IMG/VR virus record: IMGVR_UViG_3300032291_002681
Coordinates: 1-64,000 of that record
Length of the DNA: 64,000 nucleotides
Source of the DNA: a virus
Reading direction: 5' to 3' (one strand)
Below are positions 38,617 through 64,000 of the stretch, in pieces; position 1 is the first letter of the stretch; each line of letters begins with the position of its first letter. A model generated the notes under the pieces. That model worked only from the letters and a program-made list of their open reading frames with translations. It searched no databases and was not told the origin of the DNA. The position numbers and the translations under genes are program-made.

Positions 38617-38988
38617 ATGTTAGACATTAAACGATATAAAATAATTAATAAGGATACTACCGTTTACAATGGTGTAAGTATAAAAACATATACGCCAAAT
38701 GTAACTGAAACAGATTATAAAAGAGGATATGTAACTCGGTACTTTGTACAAAAGGCTAATGATATCGAATCGGTAATATATGAAGTAGATTATATAGGAT
38801 TTAGTAAAGCAATAGATAATCCGTTTTACACTTGTGAAAGTATTAATTGGAGAATAATTGGAGATGATGCAGCTATCAAAGATTCTAATCTCAAAGCAAT
38901 AAAATTGGTAATTCCTAAAATCCCAAAAATACAATTGTATTTACCAAACTTATTACAGTTTAAACAAAAAAAAGATTTGGAAGTTTAA
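38617..38988 (+). CDS. Hypothetical protein at the end of the tail operon
   Basis: 123 residues, basic, beta-rich, with many aromatic residues (RGYVTRYFVQKANDIESVIYEVDYIGF). It starts 5 nt after the hub gene stop, so it is translated with it. It could be a small baseplate protein. I do not recognise the family. Confidence 0.6.
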   Translation: MLDIKRYKIINKDTTVYNGVSIKTYTPNVTETDYKRGYVTRYFVQKANDIESVIYEVDYIGFSKAIDNPFYTCESINWRIIGDDAAIKDSNLKAIKLVIPKIPKIQLYLPNLLQFKQKKDLEV

Positions 38989-39020: not shown

Positions 39021-39407
39021 GGGGGTGACTCGGAATTGATTACAATGAGAATTGTAGTATCACACGTAGACAGAAGTGCTAGATGTCTTTAAATCTGTAC
39101 AAAACAATAACTGACGTAGAATTATCTACTTGGAACTTCGAAGATGCTATGGCATTTGTAGGAGCTTACGATTACGCTGTAGCAGCCTAATCACCACCCG
39201 CATCACTCGTGGGTTTTAAATAGAAGTGAACAAACCGGAGCATTACTTATCGGCTCCCTAAAACTGATAGGTTGGTGGAATCGCTGAACTAACCATTCGG
39301 CCCCAATTATTTTGGAAAGTTAATAAGATTAAACTTTATCCTAAACGTGTGAATCTCTGGTATTATGGTTACTTTGTAAGACATGGGTTCGAATCCCATC
39401 ACCTCCA
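39021..39407 (+). ncRNA. ssrA: Transfer-messenger RNA (tmRNA)
   Basis: About 387 nt. The 5' end GGGGGTG (39021-39027) pairs with CACCTCC (39400-39406) over 7 bp with one G-U pair, giving the acceptor stem with A39407 as discriminator; CCA is not encoded. A 5-bp T arm with loop TTCGAAT lies at 39383-39399. The open frame GGA GCT TAC GAT TAC GCT GTA GCA GCC TAA at 39161-39190 encodes the tag GAYDYAVAA, of the Bacteroidota type. Hairpin-rich sequence after the tag fits pseudoknots. tmRNA rescues stalled ribosomes and tags the unfinished protein for degradation. It has its own promoter and terminator. Confidence 0.92.
39161..39190 (+). other. tmRNA tag reading frame
   Basis: Encodes G-A-Y-D-Y-A-V-A-A followed by TAA. 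The terminal Ala-Ala and Tyr-Ala-x-Ala-Ala pattern match proteolysis tags; the first Gly matches Bacteroidota tags. The exact resume codon is inferred by comparison. Confidence 0.8.
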
Positions 39408-39411
39408 CAAT

Positions 39412-39905: not shown

Positions 39906-40169
39906 ATGTCAAAAGCACAATCAGTAAATGATAAACCCAGAAAATTCCAACACATCTACAAAGATGATGATGGGGTAGAATCTATTTGGAAATACGATTT
40001 AGATAAGTTTCCTAATGGACCAATTTCGGTAGAGAATAAATTTCCACCTCACTATGAGAAGAAATTAAAAGCTCAACAAAAAGAAGCTAAACTGGTAAAG
40101 AATCAATCAATATTAGAAAAAGCAAAAGCTGCAAATAAGAATGATAAAGATAGTAGAAAATATTGGTGA
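39906..40169 (+). CDS. Small basic hypothetical protein
   Basis: 87 residues with a charged helical C-terminus (EKKLKAQQKEAKLVKNQSILEKAKAANK). The N-terminal half contains FQHIYKDDDGVESIWKYDLDKFPNGPISV. No known family recognised. Its end overlaps the next gene by 29 nt, so the two are probably co-translated, which could point to a role with the polymerase-like protein. Confidence 0.6.
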   Translation: MSKAQSVNDKPRKFQHIYKDDDGVESIWKYDLDKFPNGPISVENKFPPHYEKKLKAQQKEAKLVKNQSILEKAKAANKNDKDSRKYW

Positions 40170-41427
40170 GATTAACGAATTGATGGAAAAATTGGAAACT
40201 GAATCATCGATTTGGTATCCATTGTGGGTGGATAATGATAAACATCCACAAAACACTCATATATCCTTCCTGTTCGTTCAAACTTCAACTGATAGGTACA
40301 TTCTACCACATCAACATACGGACTCTCTATCACTCTCTAAACCGGTTATAGAGGGTATCTTAAATACAACAGGTGAAAAGTGGGTATTCCAAAAGAAAAA
40401 GCTACTACAATCGTTTCAAAATCTAAGGGAAGGGTTGAATGATGTTGATACTACTCACTTTCTAAAAACAGGTGAAACGATAGACTACTCCCAACAACTA
40501 CAACAATTAGTAGCTCCTTATTTACACAAAGGTTACAAAGAAAACATCATTCAATCCATTCCTATTCTTAAACTTGCGGAAGCGATAGAACCACTATTGC
40601 TAAAATGTACAAATCAAAAGAGTAAAACTTATAATTGGTACAATGATATCTTCTTACCAACCCTTTCAGATATTGAACGATATGGGGTTCGGGTCGATAG
40701 GGAAAAATTTATTGATAGATGGCCTCAAGCTCAAAAGCAAGTATCCTCCGATAACTTAGTGTACACCGAATACAATCCATTTACGGTGACCGGTAGACCA
40801 TCCAATAGACATGGTGGTGTAAACTATGCAGCCCTAAACAAAACCGATGGTAGTAGAGAGTGTTTCGTTTCCGATGGGATATTCCTACAAATGGATTATA
40901 ATGCGTATCACCCACGATTAATTGCTAAGTTGATTGGATTTGATGTACCGGATGGGAATATGCACCAATGGTTAGCTGACCAATATGGTTGTAGTGTGGA
41001 TGAATCGAAGGGGATAACATTCCAATTATTGTATGGTGGTATCGATGATGAGTTCCGCCAAATCCCATACTTTGATAAGGTGGCTGATTATATTGATGAG
41101 TTGTGGGTTGAAACGCAAAAGAAGGGATACTTGCAAACACCACATAGAGAGATTCCTTTGAGCTGGATAGAACAACCGAATGCACAAAAGGTATTTAACT
41201 ACTTACTACAAGCGGTGGAAACTGAAATGAATGTGGATGTGATGAGAAAGATATTAGATTATGTGAGAGGGAGTGGAATCCGATTTTGTTTATACACATA
41301 CGATTCGTTTCTTTTTGATGTACCGACTGGAATAGATAAGAATATTATTAGAGGATTGAAGGAAATAATTGAGGGAAGTGGGTTTCCTGTGAAAGCCAGT
41401 TGGGGATTAGATTACGGAAAATTATAA
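40141..41427 (+). CDS. Compact family-A DNA polymerase-like protein
   Basis: 428 residues. Residues 1-120 look like a degenerate 3'-5' exonuclease domain (ISFLFVQTSTDRYILPHQH, then GEKWVFQKKKLLQSF) without the acidic metal ligands. The polymerase domain has TVTGRPSNRHGGVNYAALNK, motif A at Asp252 (LQMDYNAYHPRL), a motif B-like segment with Lys290 and Tyr298 (SKGITFQLLYGG), and motif C as Tyr-Asp388-Ser389 in place of His-Asp-Glu. Family-A enzymes are usually about 600-900 residues. Both metal-binding aspartates are kept, so activity is possible, but motif B lacks the usual Arg and motif C lacks Glu. It sits among accessory genes, not with the replication genes. Confidence 0.75.
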   Translation: MIKIVENIGEINELMEKLETESSIWYPLWVDNDKHPQNTHISFLFVQTSTDRYILPHQHTDSLSLSKPVIEGILNTTGEKWVFQKKKLLQSFQNLREGLNDVDTTHFLKTGETIDYSQQLQQLVAPYLHKGYKENIIQSIPILKLAEAIEPLLLKCTNQKSKTYNWYNDIFLPTLSDIERYGVRVDREKFIDRWPQAQKQVSSDNLVYTEYNPFTVTGRPSNRHGGVNYAALNKTDGSRECFVSDGIFLQMDYNAYHPRLIAKLIGFDVPDGNMHQWLADQYGCSVDESKGITFQLLYGGIDDEFRQIPYFDKVADYIDELWVETQKKGYLQTPHREIPLSWIEQPNAQKVFNYLLQAVETEMNVDVMRKILDYVRGSGIRFCLYTYDSFLFDVPTGIDKNIIRGLKEIIEGSGFPVKASWGLDYGKL

Positions 41428-57155: not shown

Positions 57156-57419
57156 ATGTTAGAAGTTAAAAGATTTTCGGCAGTATGGTGTGGACCGTGT
57201 AGAGCATTAGCACCTGTAATGGAAGGTATTAAAAATGAATATACCAATGTGGTATTTGAAACTATTGATGTGGATGTAGACCACGAACAAGCATCTCAAT
57301 TCGGGATACGTTCAGTACCAACTGTTGTATTTGTAAAAGATGGGGTTGAAGTTAATAGATTAGTGGGAGTAAATTCAAAATTAGCTTATGTTAATTCAAT
57401 AAATGAGCATTTAAAATAA
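57156..57419 (+). CDS. Thioredoxin
   Basis: 87 residues. The active site is Trp11-Cys12-Gly-Pro-Cys15, and the cis-Pro loop is GIRSVPTVVFVKDG. It is slightly shorter than the usual 105 residues because the first beta-alpha unit is reduced. Its position 20 nt after nrdA points to a role as electron donor for the phage ribonucleotide reductase, reducing the C-terminal Cys pair of NrdA. Confidence 0.92.
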   Translation: MLEVKRFSAVWCGPCRALAPVMEGIKNEYTNVVFETIDVDVDHEQASQFGIRSVPTVVFVKDGVEVNRLVGVNSKLAYVNSINEHLK

Positions 57420-57450
57420 TTGGTAATATCAAAAAGTTTTCGTAAATTTG
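57420..57450 (+). promoter_or_regulatory. Bacteroidota-type promoter of the asnB cassette
   Basis: TTG at 57420-57422, 20-nt spacer, TAAATTTG at 57443-57450. The -7 box ends 4 nt before the ATG at 57455, so the transcript would be leaderless or nearly so, or initiation starts within the gene and a later start is used. Confidence 0.65.
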
Positions 57451-57454
57451 TTAT

Positions 57455-58912
57455 ATGTGTGGAATCATAGGCGGTAATTGGTTTAGTTCGGAAGAACAAA
57501 CTCATACCCATTTAAATAAAATAATTCATAGGGGTAGAGATGCTTCCGAAGTGGATGTTGTAGATACTTTCTACATTGGACATAATCGTCTTTCAATACA
57601 AGACCTGTCATCAACTGCAAATCAACCAATGTGGAATGATGACAGGACAGTTTGTATTGTGTATAATGGTGAGCTATGGGAGAGTTCTCATACCGAAGAA
57701 CTAAAAAATAGTATCAAAACACCATTCAAAACGAAATCAGATACCGAAATAATCTTAAATGCATATTTGGATTATGGAACTGAATCATTCAAAGATTTGG
57801 ATGGTATGTTTTCGTTTGCAATAGTTGATAGTAAACTTAATAAAGTATTTGTTGTTAGAGATTATGTAGGAGAATTACCTTTGTGGTATGCAATTGATAA
57901 TGATAATAAATTAGTATTTTGTTCAGAAAAGAAAGGATTGCCTATTTCAGATTTATATGAGAAGCAAGTAAAGGCAATATATCCAGGTACATTTTTAGAA
58001 TACAATTACAAAACATTAGAACATACGATTAAAACATATTACAAACTTCCAACTGAAATAATAAACGATGATAGAGAAACTATCGTTAAGAATATTAGAA
58101 CAATGATGGAAGAAGCTGTAAAAGTTAAAATGGTATCGGATGTTCCTATTTGTACAATTTTAAGTGGTGGTATCGATTCGGTTATTACAACATACATACT
58201 TTCAAAAATCAAACCAGATATCCAAGCATTCGTTGTATCAATGGGTGATGGTGATACTAAAAATGATGATATAAAGTATGCAAGAATTGCAGCTAAAGAA
58301 TTTGGTGTAACACTACATGAAATTATTTTAACCGAACAAGATGTTGAAGATGCTATCAATGAAACTCTCTATGTGATTGAACAAAGTAGATGGCAAAATG
58401 TTGGTAGTGCAATTGCACAAATAGCATTATCTAAAAAGATAAATGAGCTAGGATTCAAAGTTGTATTTAGTGGTGACCTATCTGATGAAATTTGGGGGAG
58501 TTATGGACATATTCAAGCGTTTCATTGGAGACCTGAAGATTATGATAAGGCTAGAAGAAAATTGGTAGAGGATGTGCATAAAACGAACTTTTTAACAACA
58601 AATCAATCTATTATGTGGGGTGGAACCGTTGAGGTAAGAACTCCATATAGTTGGAGACCGTTTGTAGAATACACATTAAATATTCCACCATTATATCAGA
58701 AAGAAGGTGGGCACATGAAACCTCTATTAAGAGCTGCATTCAAAGGGGAGATTTCAGACGAACTATTATATAGACCAAAAGTTTACTTTGCAAAAGGATG
58801 TAGAACCGGTGATATGATGGAAGCCAAAAAAAATATTTTGAAATCTCAATTAAAATCACTATATTTGTATAAAGACGAAATAAACTTAAATAAATTCTTT
58901 CAATATGCTTAA
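57455..58912 (+). CDS. asnB: Asparagine synthetase (glutamine-hydrolysing)
   Basis: 485 residues. Met1-Cys2-Gly-Ile gives the N-terminal nucleophile of a class II glutaminase, with HRGRDASE (usually HRGPD), NRLSIQDLS and VYNGELWE. The synthetase half has the PP-loop SGGIDS at residues 237-242 and SGDLSDEIWGSYGH. It transfers ammonia from glutamine to an acid, normally aspartate, with ATP. It is shorter than host AsnB (about 550). The gene overlaps the next by 8 nt, so it belongs to the following cassette. Asparagine supply or amidation of another substrate are both possible. Confidence 0.88.
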   Translation: MCGIIGGNWFSSEEQTHTHLNKIIHRGRDASEVDVVDTFYIGHNRLSIQDLSSTANQPMWNDDRTVCIVYNGELWESSHTEELKNSIKTPFKTKSDTEIILNAYLDYGTESFKDLDGMFSFAIVDSKLNKVFVVRDYVGELPLWYAIDNDNKLVFCSEKKGLPISDLYEKQVKAIYPGTFLEYNYKTLEHTIKTYYKLPTEIINDDRETIVKNIRTMMEEAVKVKMVSDVPICTILSGGIDSVITTYILSKIKPDIQAFVVSMGDGDTKNDDIKYARIAAKEFGVTLHEIILTEQDVEDAINETLYVIEQSRWQNVGSAIAQIALSKKINELGFKVVFSGDLSDEIWGSYGHIQAFHWRPEDYDKARRKLVEDVHKTNFLTTNQSIMWGGTVEVRTPYSWRPFVEYTLNIPPLYQKEGGHMKPLLRAAFKGEISDELLYRPKVYFAKGCRTGDMMEAKKNILKSQLKSLYLYKDEINLNKFFQYA

Positions 58913-59426
58913 TTTTGTAAAAGCCGAAAAAGGTACATCCGAAATGATAGAAGCCGTTAATCAAGCTTCAACCATCATTGATTTGTATCCTGAAATATTT
59001 CCACACTTATATAAACAAGGATTTAAGTTGGAAAAGTATATTGAAAAAGGTGGTATGATACTTCAGGATGGAGTTGTTATTACTTTTGGAAAATATAAAT
59101 CTCATGGTAGAATGAGTAAAAACGCTACCACTTATAAAAAGAAAGGTGATTACATTTTACATCAAATTGCAACTAATCATTCCAAATCAAACGCATCGAT
59201 AGAAGTTTTGAATAAGTTTGTAGAATATTGTAAAGAACAACATGCAGAAAACTTATTCTTAACTGTTAGAGCATTCAATTATAGAGCAGTACTTTTCTAT
59301 GAAAGATATGGATTCGTAAAAGATAGTGATATAACTTGGACTAGTAAAAAAGATGGAGTTATAAATGGGATTGTGTTTAGATTAAGATTGGTTGCAAATA
59401 AAAATATAGAAACAGTATGTATTTAG
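58905..59426 (+). CDS. GNAT family acetyltransferase
   Basis: 173 residues. The C-terminal half has the GNAT pattern: DYILHQIATNHSKSN (acyl-CoA loop region), NLFLTVRAFNYRAVLFYERYGF, where the Asn, Ala, Tyr and Gly-Phe are typical. The substrate is not known. The ATG overlaps the asnB stop by 8 nt and the gene overlaps the next methyltransferase by 10 nt, so the three are translationally linked. Acylation of a DNA base, as done by Mom-type GNATs, is one possibility. Confidence 0.8.
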   Translation: MLNFVKAEKGTSEMIEAVNQASTIIDLYPEIFPHLYKQGFKLEKYIEKGGMILQDGVVITFGKYKSHGRMSKNATTYKKKGDYILHQIATNHSKSNASIEVLNKFVEYCKEQHAENLFLTVRAFNYRAVLFYERYGFVKDSDITWTSKKDGVINGIVFRLRLVANKNIETVCI

Positions 59427-60646
59427 AATATTTTGATAAATTCAAAGGAATGACTCCGTATCTTCACATAAATTCCGAAGAATGGAAACACATCAAACTT
59501 ACATTTGATGTTAATGATGTTAAAGAATCATTAGCAGAGGTAAGTATGACTTATGAGTTACCATACGCGGATATTAGCGAAGATGATGCAAGAAAAGAAT
59601 ATCTTGCACTTAAAGGCATTCGTTGGAATGAATTATTTACTGAAGGAGAATGGTTTCCGAGAAAAGCATCCGATTTCAGATATAGTTTAGATTTTCAAGG
59701 TAAACCACAATACATTCGTAGATTAAATACGGGTAACGATGCATCGAATCATTTCCAACAATCAAATCGTTGGAGTGTAGACGGTACCGTTTCACCTGGA
59801 CCAAAAAGAACTTGGGCAAGTAAAGAGTTTATGACAACTCTGATGGGAGGATTATATACTCTTAAATTTGATGAAGTTGGTAGAAACCAACTAAGAGTGT
59901 GTTTGAGTTTAAGAAAATATATTTGTTCACAATTTAAACCAAATGCTGCAAAAGTATTATACGATTTTTATGAAGCTAAAAACGTATTAGACATATCAGC
60001 GGGATGGGGTGATAGATTGTGTGGATTCTTTGCATCTGAATTCGGAGAACATTATGTAGGCATTGACCCTAGAAAAGAAAATCATCCAATCTACAATCAA
60101 CAGGCTGAATTTTATACTAAACACAATTCATTCTTTGAAACTGAAAAGAAAGCGGATTTTATAGAATCACCTGCCGAAGATGCGGATTTAACTCAATATA
60201 AAGACCACTTTGATATAGTATTTAGTTCACCTCCGTATTTCAATGTAGAACGATATTCATACGATGATACTCAAAGTTGGGTAAGATACAAAAATATAGA
60301 TGCATGGAATAAAGAATTCTTGCATAAAACAATTGCAAATGTATGGCCTACTTTGAAGAAAGGCGGTATATTGGCAGTTAATATTGCAGATGTATATGCA
60401 TCATCGAAAGGTGATGGTAAAGGCTATAAGGAAATTTGTAATCCAATGAATGATTTCATTCAAACATTAGGTGCAGAATACGAAGGGTGCTTGGGAATGG
60501 AAATGGCGAAAAGACCTGGTAGTGCTGGTGCAGCTTCTATTATAGAAGGGGATGAGGAAAGGTATAGTGAAGAAGCGTTAAAAAAGGCAGAAGAAGCGGG
60601 TGATAAAACATTTTGTGAACCTATCTGGATATGGAAGAAGTTATGA
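59417..60646 (+). CDS. DNA methyltransferase-like protein A
   Basis: 409 residues. Residues 1-180 are a conserved N-terminal region (MYLEYFDKFKGMTPYLHI, then a GNDASNHFQQSNRW segment). The AdoMet motif I is Asp192 in LDISAGWGDRLCGFF. The catalytic motif IV is SSPPYF at 270-275, followed by ERYSYDDTQSW. SPPY-type motifs are found in N4-cytosine and N6-adenine methyltransferases. No specificity domain or restriction partner is recognised. It is a paralogue of the next gene and shares motifs with the gene at 62643. Confidence 0.82.
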   Translation: MYLEYFDKFKGMTPYLHINSEEWKHIKLTFDVNDVKESLAEVSMTYELPYADISEDDARKEYLALKGIRWNELFTEGEWFPRKASDFRYSLDFQGKPQYIRRLNTGNDASNHFQQSNRWSVDGTVSPGPKRTWASKEFMTTLMGGLYTLKFDEVGRNQLRVCLSLRKYICSQFKPNAAKVLYDFYEAKNVLDISAGWGDRLCGFFASEFGEHYVGIDPRKENHPIYNQQAEFYTKHNSFFETEKKADFIESPAEDADLTQYKDHFDIVFSSPPYFNVERYSYDDTQSWVRYKNIDAWNKEFLHKTIANVWPTLKKGGILAVNIADVYASSKGDGKGYKEICNPMNDFIQTLGAEYEGCLGMEMAKRPGSAGAASIIEGDEERYSEEALKKAEEAGDKTFCEPIWIWKKL

Positions 60647-61857
60647 TAAAAGAATATTTTAAAAAGTTTTATGGAATGGAACCGTATCTTCGTATTGAAA
60701 AAGACGAATGGCAGACTATTCTTAAAACTTATACAAAAGAAGAAATCATAGATGAACTTTCAGAAGTATTACACACATACCCACCACCAATTCCGAATAT
60801 TACGGAAGAAGATACTTTAGATGCTTATAAAAAACTAAAAGGTACTTGGTGGCCAGATATTTTGGTAGAAGGTAAATGGTTTCCACGCAATGAACGAGTA
60901 TCGAAATATCCATTAACTTACGATGGTTCTGAATTTTATTTTAGAAGAACTAATGTAGGTAATAATGCATCCAACCCATTTCACATAGAAAATCGTTGGA
61001 AGGTTGATTGGGTGAGAACGCCATCGGGTTGGAAAACTTGGCAAACGGTAGATGGTATTAAAACGATTGTGAGAGCATATTTTACTTTGGATAAAATGTT
61101 GTTAGATGTGAATTTGGAAACTTTGAAAATGGCAACAACATTAAGAAAGTATGTAGCATCACAATTTAAACCTGTTATAGCAAAAGCATTCTATGATAAA
61201 TTTCAGAGTGTTAATGTTATGGATTTTTCAGCAGGATGGGGTGACCGATTGGCTGGATTTTTTGCAGGAGAAACAACAAAATTTTATTTAGGTATAGACC
61301 CAAATAGTAGTAATCATCCTAACTACCAAAAACAAATTGAATTCTATAAAAAACATACAACATTTTTTGAAGAAGATAAAGATGCAAAAATGTTAGAAGC
61401 GGCAGCGGAAGATGTAGATTATTCGGAGTATGAAAACTTCTTTGATACAATCTTTACTTCACCGCCATATTTTAATACCGAAAGATATAGCTTTGATGAT
61501 ACTCAAAGTTGGATTAGGTATAAAAAGTTTGATGATTGGAACAAAGGGTTCTTTCATACAACTTTGGAAAAAATTATACCTACACTTAAAAAGGATGGTA
61601 TATTGGCAATCAATATTGCGGATGTATTTTCTGCACCTGATAAGGGGTATGTAGATATAGTCAATTCTATGAACGATTTCCTCCATTCTAAGGGGTTATC
61701 TTATAAAGGGTGTATTGGTATGGAAATGACAAAAAGACCCAACAGCGGAGGTGCTGGGATGGCGGTATCGGAGTATTATTCCGATGAATTGAAAGAAAAG
61801 GCGGAAGAAACGAAAAATCACGCATTTGGAGAACCAATTTGGATTTGGCAAAAATAA
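60643..61857 (+). CDS. DNA methyltransferase-like protein B
   Basis: 404 residues from the ATG at 60643, chosen over an upstream ATG at 60631 because the protein then starts MIKEYFKKFYGMEPYLRI, aligned with the start of protein A; the ATG overlaps the stop of A (ATGA). Motif I is Asp194 in MDFSAGWGDRLAGFF; motif IV is TSPPYF at 272-277, then ERYSFDDTQSW. It is the tandem paralogue of A over its whole length, moderately diverged. The two could form a heterodimer or act on different sites. Confidence 0.82.
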   Translation: MIKEYFKKFYGMEPYLRIEKDEWQTILKTYTKEEIIDELSEVLHTYPPPIPNITEEDTLDAYKKLKGTWWPDILVEGKWFPRNERVSKYPLTYDGSEFYFRRTNVGNNASNPFHIENRWKVDWVRTPSGWKTWQTVDGIKTIVRAYFTLDKMLLDVNLETLKMATTLRKYVASQFKPVIAKAFYDKFQSVNVMDFSAGWGDRLAGFFAGETTKFYLGIDPNSSNHPNYQKQIEFYKKHTTFFEEDKDAKMLEAAAEDVDYSEYENFFDTIFTSPPYFNTERYSFDDTQSWIRYKKFDDWNKGFFHTTLEKIIPTLKKDGILAINIADVFSAPDKGYVDIVNSMNDFLHSKGLSYKGCIGMEMTKRPNSGGAGMAVSEYYSDELKEKAEETKNHAFGEPIWIWQK

Positions 61858-61859
61858 AT

Positions 61860-61890
61860 TTGGTTTATTCAATAAAAAATCGTATATTTG
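61860..61890 (+). promoter_or_regulatory. Bacteroidota-type promoter of the clamp gene
   Basis: TTG at 61860-61862, 20-nt spacer, TATATTTG at 61883-61890. The clamp ATG is 33 nt downstream. Confidence 0.78.
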
Positions 61891-61923
61891 TATTCACAAT
61901 TTAAAATTTAAACATAAACAAAC

Positions 61924-62643
61924 ATGAACAAAGCAAAACTTACAAGGTTCATCCAAAAGTACAGTTTGGGTGGGTTAGTAGAATCGGTAACATTGAAAGC
62001 AGGAGATAACAAATTAGTTACTCGTTTTATTTCAGATGACAAGACTGTATTAGGTGAAATTGAATTAGAAAAATTCACATTTAATTCTCCTGATTTAGGA
62101 GTGTACACAACATCTCAATTATCAAAACTACTTTCAGTAGTTGGTGAAGATATTGAATTGGATGTGCAAGAAATCGAAGGTAAAGCGGTAAACCTTTTCA
62201 TTAAGAGTGGTTCTACCAAAGTTCAATATCCATTGGCAGATTTGGCAGTTATTCCAAATGTACCGGATTTAAAAAAACTTCCAGAATTTGATATTGATAT
62301 CAATTTCGATGGTGCGTTTATTGACAAATTTATCAAAGCTAAAAACGCGTTGAGTGATGTAGATACTTTTACTGTGTTAAGTGAAAAAGGACAATTAAAA
62401 ATTGTACTAGGATATTCAAATATTAATTCAACTAGAGTTGATTTTGTAGTAAATGAATCACATAGTGGTGATGTAAAACCAATTTCATTCTCTGCTAAGT
62501 ATTTGAAAGAAATCTTAACCGCAAATAAAGAAGCAACTGCAGTTGTACTTAAAGTATCAACACAAGGTATTTCGCATGTTGAATTCAAAATTGATGATTT
62601 TACAGCAAAATACTTCTTAGTAGAACAACAATTATCAGCATAA
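61924..62643 (+). CDS. DNA polymerase sliding clamp, gp45-like
   Basis: 239 residues (T4 gp45 has 228). The sequence MNKAKLTRFIQKYSLGGLVESVTLKAGDNKL, the SDDKTVLGEIELEKFTF segment, KLPEFDIDINFDGAFIDKFIKAKNAL and the C-terminal YFLVEQQ are typical of T4-like clamps. It tethers the polymerase to DNA and, in T4, also activates late transcription. The stop overlaps the next ATG (TAATG). Confidence 0.85.
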   Translation: MNKAKLTRFIQKYSLGGLVESVTLKAGDNKLVTRFISDDKTVLGEIELEKFTFNSPDLGVYTTSQLSKLLSVVGEDIELDVQEIEGKAVNLFIKSGSTKVQYPLADLAVIPNVPDLKKLPEFDIDINFDGAFIDKFIKAKNALSDVDTFTVLSEKGQLKIVLGYSNINSTRVDFVVNESHSGDVKPISFSAKYLKEILTANKEATAVVLKVSTQGISHVEFKIDDFTAKYFLVEQQLSA

Positions 62644-64000
62644 TGAGTTTTAACTATAAGAAAAAATATTTCTATGAAAAGAATGACTGGTTGTACGAAC
62701 CGGAAGTAAACTTATTATACGAAGATGTTCTCAAAATGCCATTCGCTGATTTTGAAAAGTGGGTGGCATTTTTCAGAGAACTTGCAGTAAGAGTTTGGAA
62801 TGAAACTGGCGCACCACCTCGTATCGGAGTAGACGAAGGCGAGATGATTGAGCAGTTTTCTAAACTACAAACTTACAAAGTAGAAAGGTTTGAAGAAAAA
62901 GATGACGATGGAAATGAAGTTATTTTTAATTTTAATAAGTTTGCAACACCAGTAAATCAATTCTTTCCTGCAATGTATAAGACTGGAATTGGTGGTTCGG
63001 CATACGATAAACCAAAACCATCTATATACGATGTATTTGCAGATGATACCTATTTGCCAGAATTTGTCAAACAAATGAGAAGATTGACAAGACAAGATGG
63101 TATGTATCGTTTTTCCAAAACCTTACATTTGGATAATCCAGAATTCCATAACTCGCACATTCAAAGTGGTAAGGAGTGGATTGAAAAATGGGCAGCTGGT
63201 AATAAAAAAGAAGGGTATGGGTTTTGTTTATCACAAGCGGATAGCAAAGTTCCATCACCACCAATTACCGCACAAGAAGTTAGGGACCTGTATAATGCCG
63301 GTATATTAAAGTATGAAAACATATCTTCATTAAAAACTGCCGATTGGGGTGAGAATATTGATAATTTAATTGATGTTCCAAAACAACCAATTCAGATTAA
63401 AATATATCCATTAGGACAGAGAATATTTCCTGAAGCAACTGCAGCATTTCGTATTGGTATGGGTACACAAGCGGTTGTAAACTTTCCACCACTTACTGCG
63501 AAGTATCTTTACAAAAGATTTACTGACCATATCAAAGAGCAAGATGTGATAAACATTTATGACCCATCTGCGGGTTGGGGCGGTAGAATATTAGGAGCAT
63601 TGAGTCTTGATGATAGAAATGTTCATTACATAGGAAATGACCCTAATACTGAAAACTACATTGAAGAAATTGGAAAAACTCGTTACGAATATCTTGCCGA
63701 ATTCTTTAACAATAAAGTACCTGGTGCGGCAAATCCTTTTTGGGGACACGCTAATACCTACGAAATATTTACAACGGGTTCAGAAGTTATTTCAGATGAT
63801 GAAAGATTCCAAAAATATAAGGGTAAATTAGATTTCGCATTTACTTCACCACCGTATTTTGATAGAGAAAGATATTCGGATGATGATACACAATCGTTTA
63901 AGAAATTCGGAAACTATGAAAGTTGGAGAGATGGGTTCTTAAGACCAACACTAACAACAATTTATGAATATCTTCGTAATGATAGATATGTTTGTTGGAA
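62643..64000 (+). CDS. DNA methyltransferase-like protein C (3' partial)
   Basis: 452 residues are inside the window; the gene runs past its end. Residues 1-300 contain a long N-terminal region without a recognised family. Motif I is Asp307 in IYDPSAGWGGRILGAL; motif IV is TSPPYF at 401-406, then DRERYSDDDTQSF. The DPSAGWG, PPYF and DDTQS motifs link it to proteins A and B at 59417 and 60643, but the N-terminal part is different. It is translationally coupled to the clamp gene by a TAATG overlap, which suggests action at the replication fork. Confidence 0.78.
   Translation, partial: MSFNYKKKYFYEKNDWLYEPEVNLLYEDVLKMPFADFEKWVAFFRELAVRVWNETGAPPRIGVDEGEMIEQFSKLQTYKVERFEEKDDDGNEVIFNFNKFATPVNQFFPAMYKTGIGGSAYDKPKPSIYDVFADDTYLPEFVKQMRRLTRQDGMYRFSKTLHLDNPEFHNSHIQSGKEWIEKWAAGNKKEGYGFCLSQADSKVPSPPITAQEVRDLYNAGILKYENISSLKTADWGENIDNLIDVPKQPIQIKIYPLGQRIFPEATAAFRIGMGTQAVVNFPPLTAKYLYKRFTDHIKEQDVINIYDPSAGWGGRILGALSLDDRNVHYIGNDPNTENYIEEIGKTRYEYLAEFFNNKVPGAANPFWGHANTYEIFTTGSEVISDDERFQKYKGKLDFAFTSPPYFDRERYSDDDTQSFKKFGNYESWRDGFLRPTLTTIYEYLRNDRYVCW

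Follow-up and report, generated by a model that had tools for sequence, protein, structure and literature searches.

Ligases of the asparagine-synthetase type are part of known phage DNA hypermodification modules. CmoY of Synechococcus phage S-B43, which belongs to a CmoA-CmoX-CmoY set, joins glycine to 5-carboxymethylcytosine in DNA, and a second ligase cluster in the same study has a glutaminase domain, its product being unproven (PMC12783734). The cassette of Pseudomonas phage M6 leads to hypermodified thymidine (PMC9476957). Here we analyzed a window of 64,000 nucleotides, which is part (positions 1 to 64,000) of the 91,070-base virus record IMGVR_UViG_3300032291_002681 (G000), and in which a gene for an asparagine-synthetase-like protein, asnB1, is followed by a gene for a GNAT acyltransferase. 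On balance, we favor the reading that the two genes asnB1 and GNAT form an accessory module that tailors the bases of phage DNA, or the nucleotide precursors of these bases, which would make it a further form of the modules with AsnB-type ligases. The pair probably contributes to a new kind of modified DNA rather than producing asparagine, because its slot in sister viruses holds homologs of enzymes that decorate DNA bases.

The locus resembles that of S-B43 in that an asparagine-synthetase homolog lies beside a DNA methyltransferase gene in the replication region, and in that sister phages hold a CmoY-like ligase where a second AsnB type, AsnB2, is otherwise located. In contrast to CmoY, which uses glycine, AsnB1 keeps the glutaminase domain and hence an ammonia donor; moreover, the arrangement in the window, cassette I, adds the GNAT, and its methyltransferases are of the SPPY amino type. 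The identity between AsnB1 and CmoY is only 21% over the synthetase domain; the ligase of a sister-phage contig (L238, below) is clearly related to CmoY. The likeness to the thymidine hypermodification cassettes of M6/SN1 (PMC9476957) lies in a pyridoxal-phosphate (PLP) enzyme of phrog_7093, which sister phages carry at this slot; in contrast, a phmmer search with M6-type kinase, aGPT-PPlase, radical S-adenosylmethionine (SAM) and PLP proteins found no match in the open reading frames of G000 and G001 or in those covering most of G003. A search for Tet/JBP enzymes gave no match, and its control likewise matched nowhere.

Linkage of asnB1 and GNAT and exchange at their slot

Scans of IMG/VR kept 80 of 211 contigs for mtA, the methyltransferase gene following the pair, and yielded 47 contigs for asnB, 80 for GNAT (profile scan) and 50 for a thymidylate synthase (TS)-like protein; many of them are near-copies, and the counts below are contigs, not independent events. 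GNAT followed asnB in all 47 asnB contigs, and asnB lay at most 60 nucleotides upstream of GNAT in 78 of the 80 GNAT contigs, the ends of the two genes usually overlapping. With linkage of this extent, the adjacency is not due to chance. The two exceptions were distant lone GNATs (L208 and L211), the recovery of which indicates that the search was able to find unlinked GNATs. Of 67 cases with enough sequence to hold it, 64 had mtA within 3.7 kb downstream of the pair, 49 of them directly; mtA was present in all 22 of the longer records that were tested, and also in many contigs without asnB. Its paralog mtB was optional among relatives, and both were widespread without asnB-GNAT. Since the mutual linkage of asnB1 and GNAT is near-complete, while mtA occurs in contigs without asnB and mtB is optional, the inseparable unit consists of these two genes, and the methyltransferases are a core family beside it. 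An earlier note on this DNA had proposed that asnB, GNAT, mtA and mtB form one cassette, to be checked by their co-occurrence in other phages; the survey upheld the first two genes as a pair and ruled out the four-gene unit.

No relative of the GNAT was found in cultured phages, and our literature search found no paper describing the asnB1-GNAT pair. The high identity of asnB (89%, against 56% for dpol) was discarded as evidence of a recent transfer, as nrdA is equally conserved. An HD-domain gene lies directly 5' of asnB1 in a marine branch of cassette I phages (L186:5913-6563, L032:12796-13455 and L175), and one is located 3' of the PLP gene in L306.

The slot of the pair holds other genes in sister phages: (i) tsL, asnB2 and a PLP enzyme gene, (ii) tsL, a CmoY-related ligase gene and a PLP enzyme gene, or (iii) a PLP enzyme gene alone. 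The order tsL-asnB2-PLP (cassette II; for example L028:12465-15500, L231, L243 and L306) was found in 40 of the 50 tsL contigs, and asnB1 and GNAT were absent from all 50. The trx-(asnB1-GNAT)-mtA arrangement of the window thus stands against trx-(tsL-asnB2-PLP)-mtA in L036, and rfc-(asnB1-GNAT)-mtA in L038 and L045 against rfc-(PLP)-mtA in L051 and L052; the spacer 3' of rfc is 277 nucleotides in both L038 and L052, and about 277 in the comparison of the two pairs of contigs. mtC, a third methyltransferase gene, is contiguous with tsL-asnB2-PLP in G025. AsnB2 shares 34–35% identity with AsnB1, and the AsnB profile gave a single match in 30 of 43 records and never two; none of the records tested carries both AsnB1 and AsnB2. 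A tree built from 80 mtA proteins shows at least 13 switches of the cassette label; on well-supported branches, there are at least 7 for cassette I and at least 8 for cassette II. These changes indicate that the modules were repeatedly exchanged around a conserved neighbor, which is what restriction pressure on base-modification modules would be expected to produce.

The alternative occupants are homologous to enzymes of DNA hypermodification. TsL is a distant TS homolog of 232 residues, whose best solved match is cytidine monophosphate (CMP) 5-hydroxymethylase (E 3e-4), compared with E values of about 1 for thymidylate synthases. It has an invariant Cys151 and an invariant Asp182, the latter at what we take to be the position where Asn or Asp distinguishes enzymes acting on uracil from those acting on cytosine (the N-to-D rule). 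Cassette II is probably a cytosine-type hypermodification module; no description of it was found in the papers that were searchable. tsL is confined to cassette II phages, and the TS profile (PF00303) detected in G003 only an ordinary ThyA. The PLP enzymes of the slot fall into phrog_7093 together with gp052 of phage M6 (up to 8e-42). An asnB2 match was missing in six tsL contigs (L234, L238, L253, L254, L257 and L259), among which the ligase was read in L238: a protein of 308 residues without a glutaminase domain (L238:8696-9619) takes the place of AsnB2 between tsL and the PLP gene. Among cultured phages, it best matches a Staphylococcus phage protein and S-B43 CmoY, each encoded between a CmoA-like gene and a gene for a C5-methyltransferase.

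AsnB1, the GNAT and the methyltransferases

AsnB1 shares with E. coli AsnB and human ASNS the domain order, the glutaminase residues (C2, R45, N71, G72, E73 and D96), the SGGxDS PP-loop (SGGIDS) and the catalytic Lys corresponding to K449. In contrast, its C-terminus is shorter, the TTxR motif common to the E. coli and human enzymes is replaced by WQNxG, with Q, N and G at the positions of E. coli T322, T323 and R325, and the canonical loop GEGSDE reads GDLSDE, both changes being found in all AsnB1 proteins aligned. TTxR is also lost in AsnB2. Within the loop, the G-to-L change is the distinctive one. These residues argue against an asparagine synthetase of the E. coli/human type, and not for any one substrate. 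Of two curated equivalog models, AsnB1 exceeds the cutoff of TIGR01536 and remains under that of NF006949 (284.5 against 499). No AsnB1-like cellular protein was found in a scan of 84,980 species, where AsnB reached at most 38% identity in any segment. Matches to QueC turned out to be the AsnB genes themselves.

The Pfam scores of the GNAT are weak, at or below the cutoff, and its AlphaFold model (predicted local distance difference test, pLDDT, 91.8) was placed by Foldseek with PaiA/RimI-like and N-terminal acetyltransferase-like proteins. The earlier note had cited Mom of phage Mu as a GNAT that acylates adenine. Both proteins have the GNAT fold, but no sequence similarity is detectable between them (hhalign probability 0.1%), and kinship with Mom was discarded. 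The product of Mom carries a terminal amide, and such a product would match AsnB chemistry; to our knowledge, Mom works without an AsnB partner.

The methyltransferases mtA, mtB and mtC have DISAGWG, DFSAGWG and DPSAGWG as motif I, respectively, and all three contain SPPYF and DDTQS; the motifs of mtC agree with the earlier description of a third enzyme after the clamp gene. Identity is about 50% between mtA and mtB and 25% between mtC and mtA; mtA and mtB match N6_N4_Mtase (PF01555) near its cutoff, and mtC has no Pfam match. The mtA model (pLDDT 89) has a class I methyltransferase fold C-terminally and a helical N-terminal domain of about 165 residues, for which a structure search gave no whole-chain PDB match. 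Motif I, the SPPY motif IV and the modeled class I fold are those of SPPY amino-DNA-methyltransferases (N4-cytosine/N6-adenine), suggesting that mtA, mtB and mtC are a predicted amino-methyltransferase-like core family, with 1–4 copies per record. A further, short paralog (about 351 residues) lies beside the helicase gene in many relatives (L017:4508-5560). In L108:6613-7745, mtA is split over two reading frames; the gene may be broken or the assembly wrong.

Locus layout, promoters and host

The structural and replication genes of G000 are T4-like. Among cultured phages, its DNA polymerase comes closest to the one encoded by Microcystis phage Mel-JY01 (48%), and no close DNA relative was found. 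The features around the pair are listed in Table 1; trx adjoins the cassettes in most relatives.

Table 1. Features of the asnB1-GNAT region, in window coordinates
Feature	Position	Strand	Basis or remark
trx (thioredoxin)	57156..57419	+	Pfam Thioredoxin 1e-19; upstream border of the swap slot
Bacteroidota-type promoter-like site, TTG-N20-TAAATTTG	57420..57450	+	between trx and asnB
asnB1, class II glutamine amidotransferase/asparagine-synthetase-like, 485 aa	57455..58912	+	TIGR01536 285 bits; PDB 1ct9 2e-47
GNAT acyltransferase, 173 aa	58905..59426	+	weak Pfam/PHROG GNAT matches; AlphaFold model
mtA, SPPY amino-methyltransferase-like, 409 aa	59417..60646	+	PF01555 2e-5; AlphaFold model
mtB, mtA paralog	60643..61857 (alternative start 60631)	+	50% identity to mtA; PF01555 above cutoff
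Second Bacteroidota-type promoter-like site, 5' of the clamp gene	61859..61890	+	
Sliding clamp (PCNA/gp45-like)	61924..62643	+	phrog_947 3e-5; PCNA_C 0.003
mtC, third SPPY paralog, 523 aa	62643 to ~64214, past the window end (L005:5643-7214)	+	

The overlaps given in the earlier note, 8 nucleotides for asnB/GNAT, 10 for GNAT/mtA and 4 for mtA/mtB (ATGA), agree with these coordinates, the last becoming 16 nucleotides if the upstream ATG is the start of mtB; mtC starts on the last base of the clamp gene. The single promoter proposed there has to be revised: a sigma-70 signal before asnB was not above chance and was replaced by the Bacteroidota-type site, which is kept in close relatives, and the second such site precedes the clamp gene. 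On the + strand of the window, half of these promoter-like sites are intergenic (TTTG-N-TAnnTTTG at 38976, 39858, 49296, 49387, 52526, 57420 and 61859), and the sites lead us to regard the host as probably a member of the Bacteroidota.

A transfer-messenger RNA (tmRNA), which is unusual in phages, is located at 39021-39410 (+; 65.9 bits with Rfam RF00023, for which the threshold is 47), with the odd tag VNKPEHYLSAP (ARAGORN). Judged by sequence motifs, a 428-residue protein at 40141-41427 (+) looks like a short C-terminal part of a family A DNA polymerase; a full family B DNA polymerase gene lies 3' of mtC (L005:7223-9775). Near the end of the record, at 75-91 kb (L006:1019-14419, corresponding to 76-89 kb of the record), there is a large putative glycan/nucleotide-sugar cluster with genes that read as glycosyltransferase-, UDP-GlcNAc epimerase-, aminotransferase- and acetyltransferase-like.

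Function of the pair

If asnB1-GNAT is a base-tailoring module, it would act from the early DNA-replication operon, beside the core SPPY methyltransferases. AsnB1 would hydrolyze glutamine at Cys2 and activate a carboxylate with ATP to form a terminal amide, and acyl-CoA would serve the GNAT as the donor of an acyl group. As no hydroxymethylase, carboxy-SAM (Cx-SAM) synthase or C5-methyltransferase was found in the cassette I genomes tested, no enzyme is known there that would form a handle, and the carboxylate for AsnB1 must come from elsewhere; the most economical source would be an acyl group with a carboxylate, put on by the GNAT, or the product of mtA. We therefore prefer the order in which the GNAT (or mtA) would put a carboxylate-bearing group on a base amino group and AsnB1 would then amidate it. 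DNA as the substrate, the chemistry and this order are what we infer; the specific hydroxymethyl-free pathway, in which the GNAT loads a carboxylated acyl group on a base amino group, either unprepared or prepared by mtA, and AsnB1 amidates it, is a tentative proposal, and rather doubtful in that detail.

Several results weigh against a base-tailoring function. The companions of CmoY in S-B43 were not detected: CmoA (TIGR00740) had no match in 17 records, some of them possibly fragments, and the C5-methyltransferase/CmoX family (PF00145) none in 11. A TS homolog (PF00303) was absent from G000, G001, G002, G004 and G008. As records may be incomplete, the absence of CmoA, C5-methyltransferase and hydroxymethylase is not proof. 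A TS homolog is likewise missing from phages with the PLP gene alone, such as G005, whose PLP enzymes therefore do not necessarily have 5-hydroxymethyl bases as substrates. D at the E348 position is also found in ordinary cellular relatives of AsnB and is thus not diagnostic alone; these relatives also lack TTxR in the same register. Furthermore, AsnB1 exceeds the cutoff of the asparagine-synthase equivalog TIGR01536 (285.4 bits against 267.1), and genes neighboring the replication region can be genes of nucleotide or amino-acid metabolism.

The TIGR01536 score, the complete glutaminase site with the conserved Lys, and the metabolic neighbors nrdA, nrdB and trx would fit an AsnB1 that makes asparagine for phage proteins in a nitrogen-limited or asparagine-poor host, with the GNAT as an unrelated acetylase of proteins or metabolites and the methyltransferases protecting DNA independently. 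However, WQNxG replaces TTxR in every AsnB1 aligned, asnB1 was never found without GNAT, and its slot alternates with hypermodification-type genes, including the CmoY-like ligase of L238 in the place of AsnB2. We judge DNA (or nucleotide) hypermodification to be more likely than asparagine supply, which we consider unlikely but worth keeping in mind. The pair could also build or modify a small molecule, such as a sugar, a dipeptide or a cofactor that is amidated or acylated, to be used in virion glycans or in taking over the host, for example, and leave DNA untouched. AsnB-type amidotransferases do occur in glycan clusters, as in Synechococcus phage S-SCSM1, this phage has a large glycan cluster of its own, and the GNAT model is PaiA/RimI-type-like; in every relative seen, however, the pair is located within the replication module and far removed from that cluster, and the slot alternatives are base-modification homologs, leaving this explanation rather improbable.

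Another route would be carboxymethylation of a base amino group by mtA via Cx-SAM followed by amidation by AsnB1, an amino-methyltransferase analog of CmoA-CmoX-CmoY. The resulting base would carry a carbamoylmethyl group, as does the one made by Mu Mom. Although its chemistry parallels that of S-B43 (PMC12783734), this route is very unlikely, given the lack of CmoA in all 17 records, the probable Bacteroidota host (the CmoA cutoff was exceeded in 1 of 14 control genomes) and the presence of mtA in many phages without any AsnB. The resemblance of the GNAT, in sequence and fold, to N-terminal and RimI-type protein acetyltransferases would suit modification of a protein (host RNA polymerase, ribosome or a phage protein) for takeover or counter-defence; this leaves both the inseparability of GNAT and AsnB and the swapping of their slot with PLP and TS-like enzymes unexplained, and we regard it as highly improbable. 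The base-tailoring module thus remains the reading that we favor. The earlier suggestion that AsnB supplies an amide for DNA modification is retained for the pair, in light of the slot alternatives, the CmoY precedent and the altered residues of AsnB1, and abandoned for the four-gene cassette.

In the hydroxymethyl-free pathway, two enzymes, AsnB1 and the GNAT, would suffice to give a base with an amide, at a site where related phages exchange entire chemistries of base decoration. If the base-tailoring reading is correct, a widespread group of aquatic phages, probably of Bacteroidota, would exchange base-decoration modules at one slot around core methyltransferases, and their “asparagine synthetases”, which commonly appear among auxiliary metabolic genes, would be DNA amidotransferases. 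This would change the reading of such genes in viromes and would offer a testable enzyme set for new DNA chemistry and restriction evasion.

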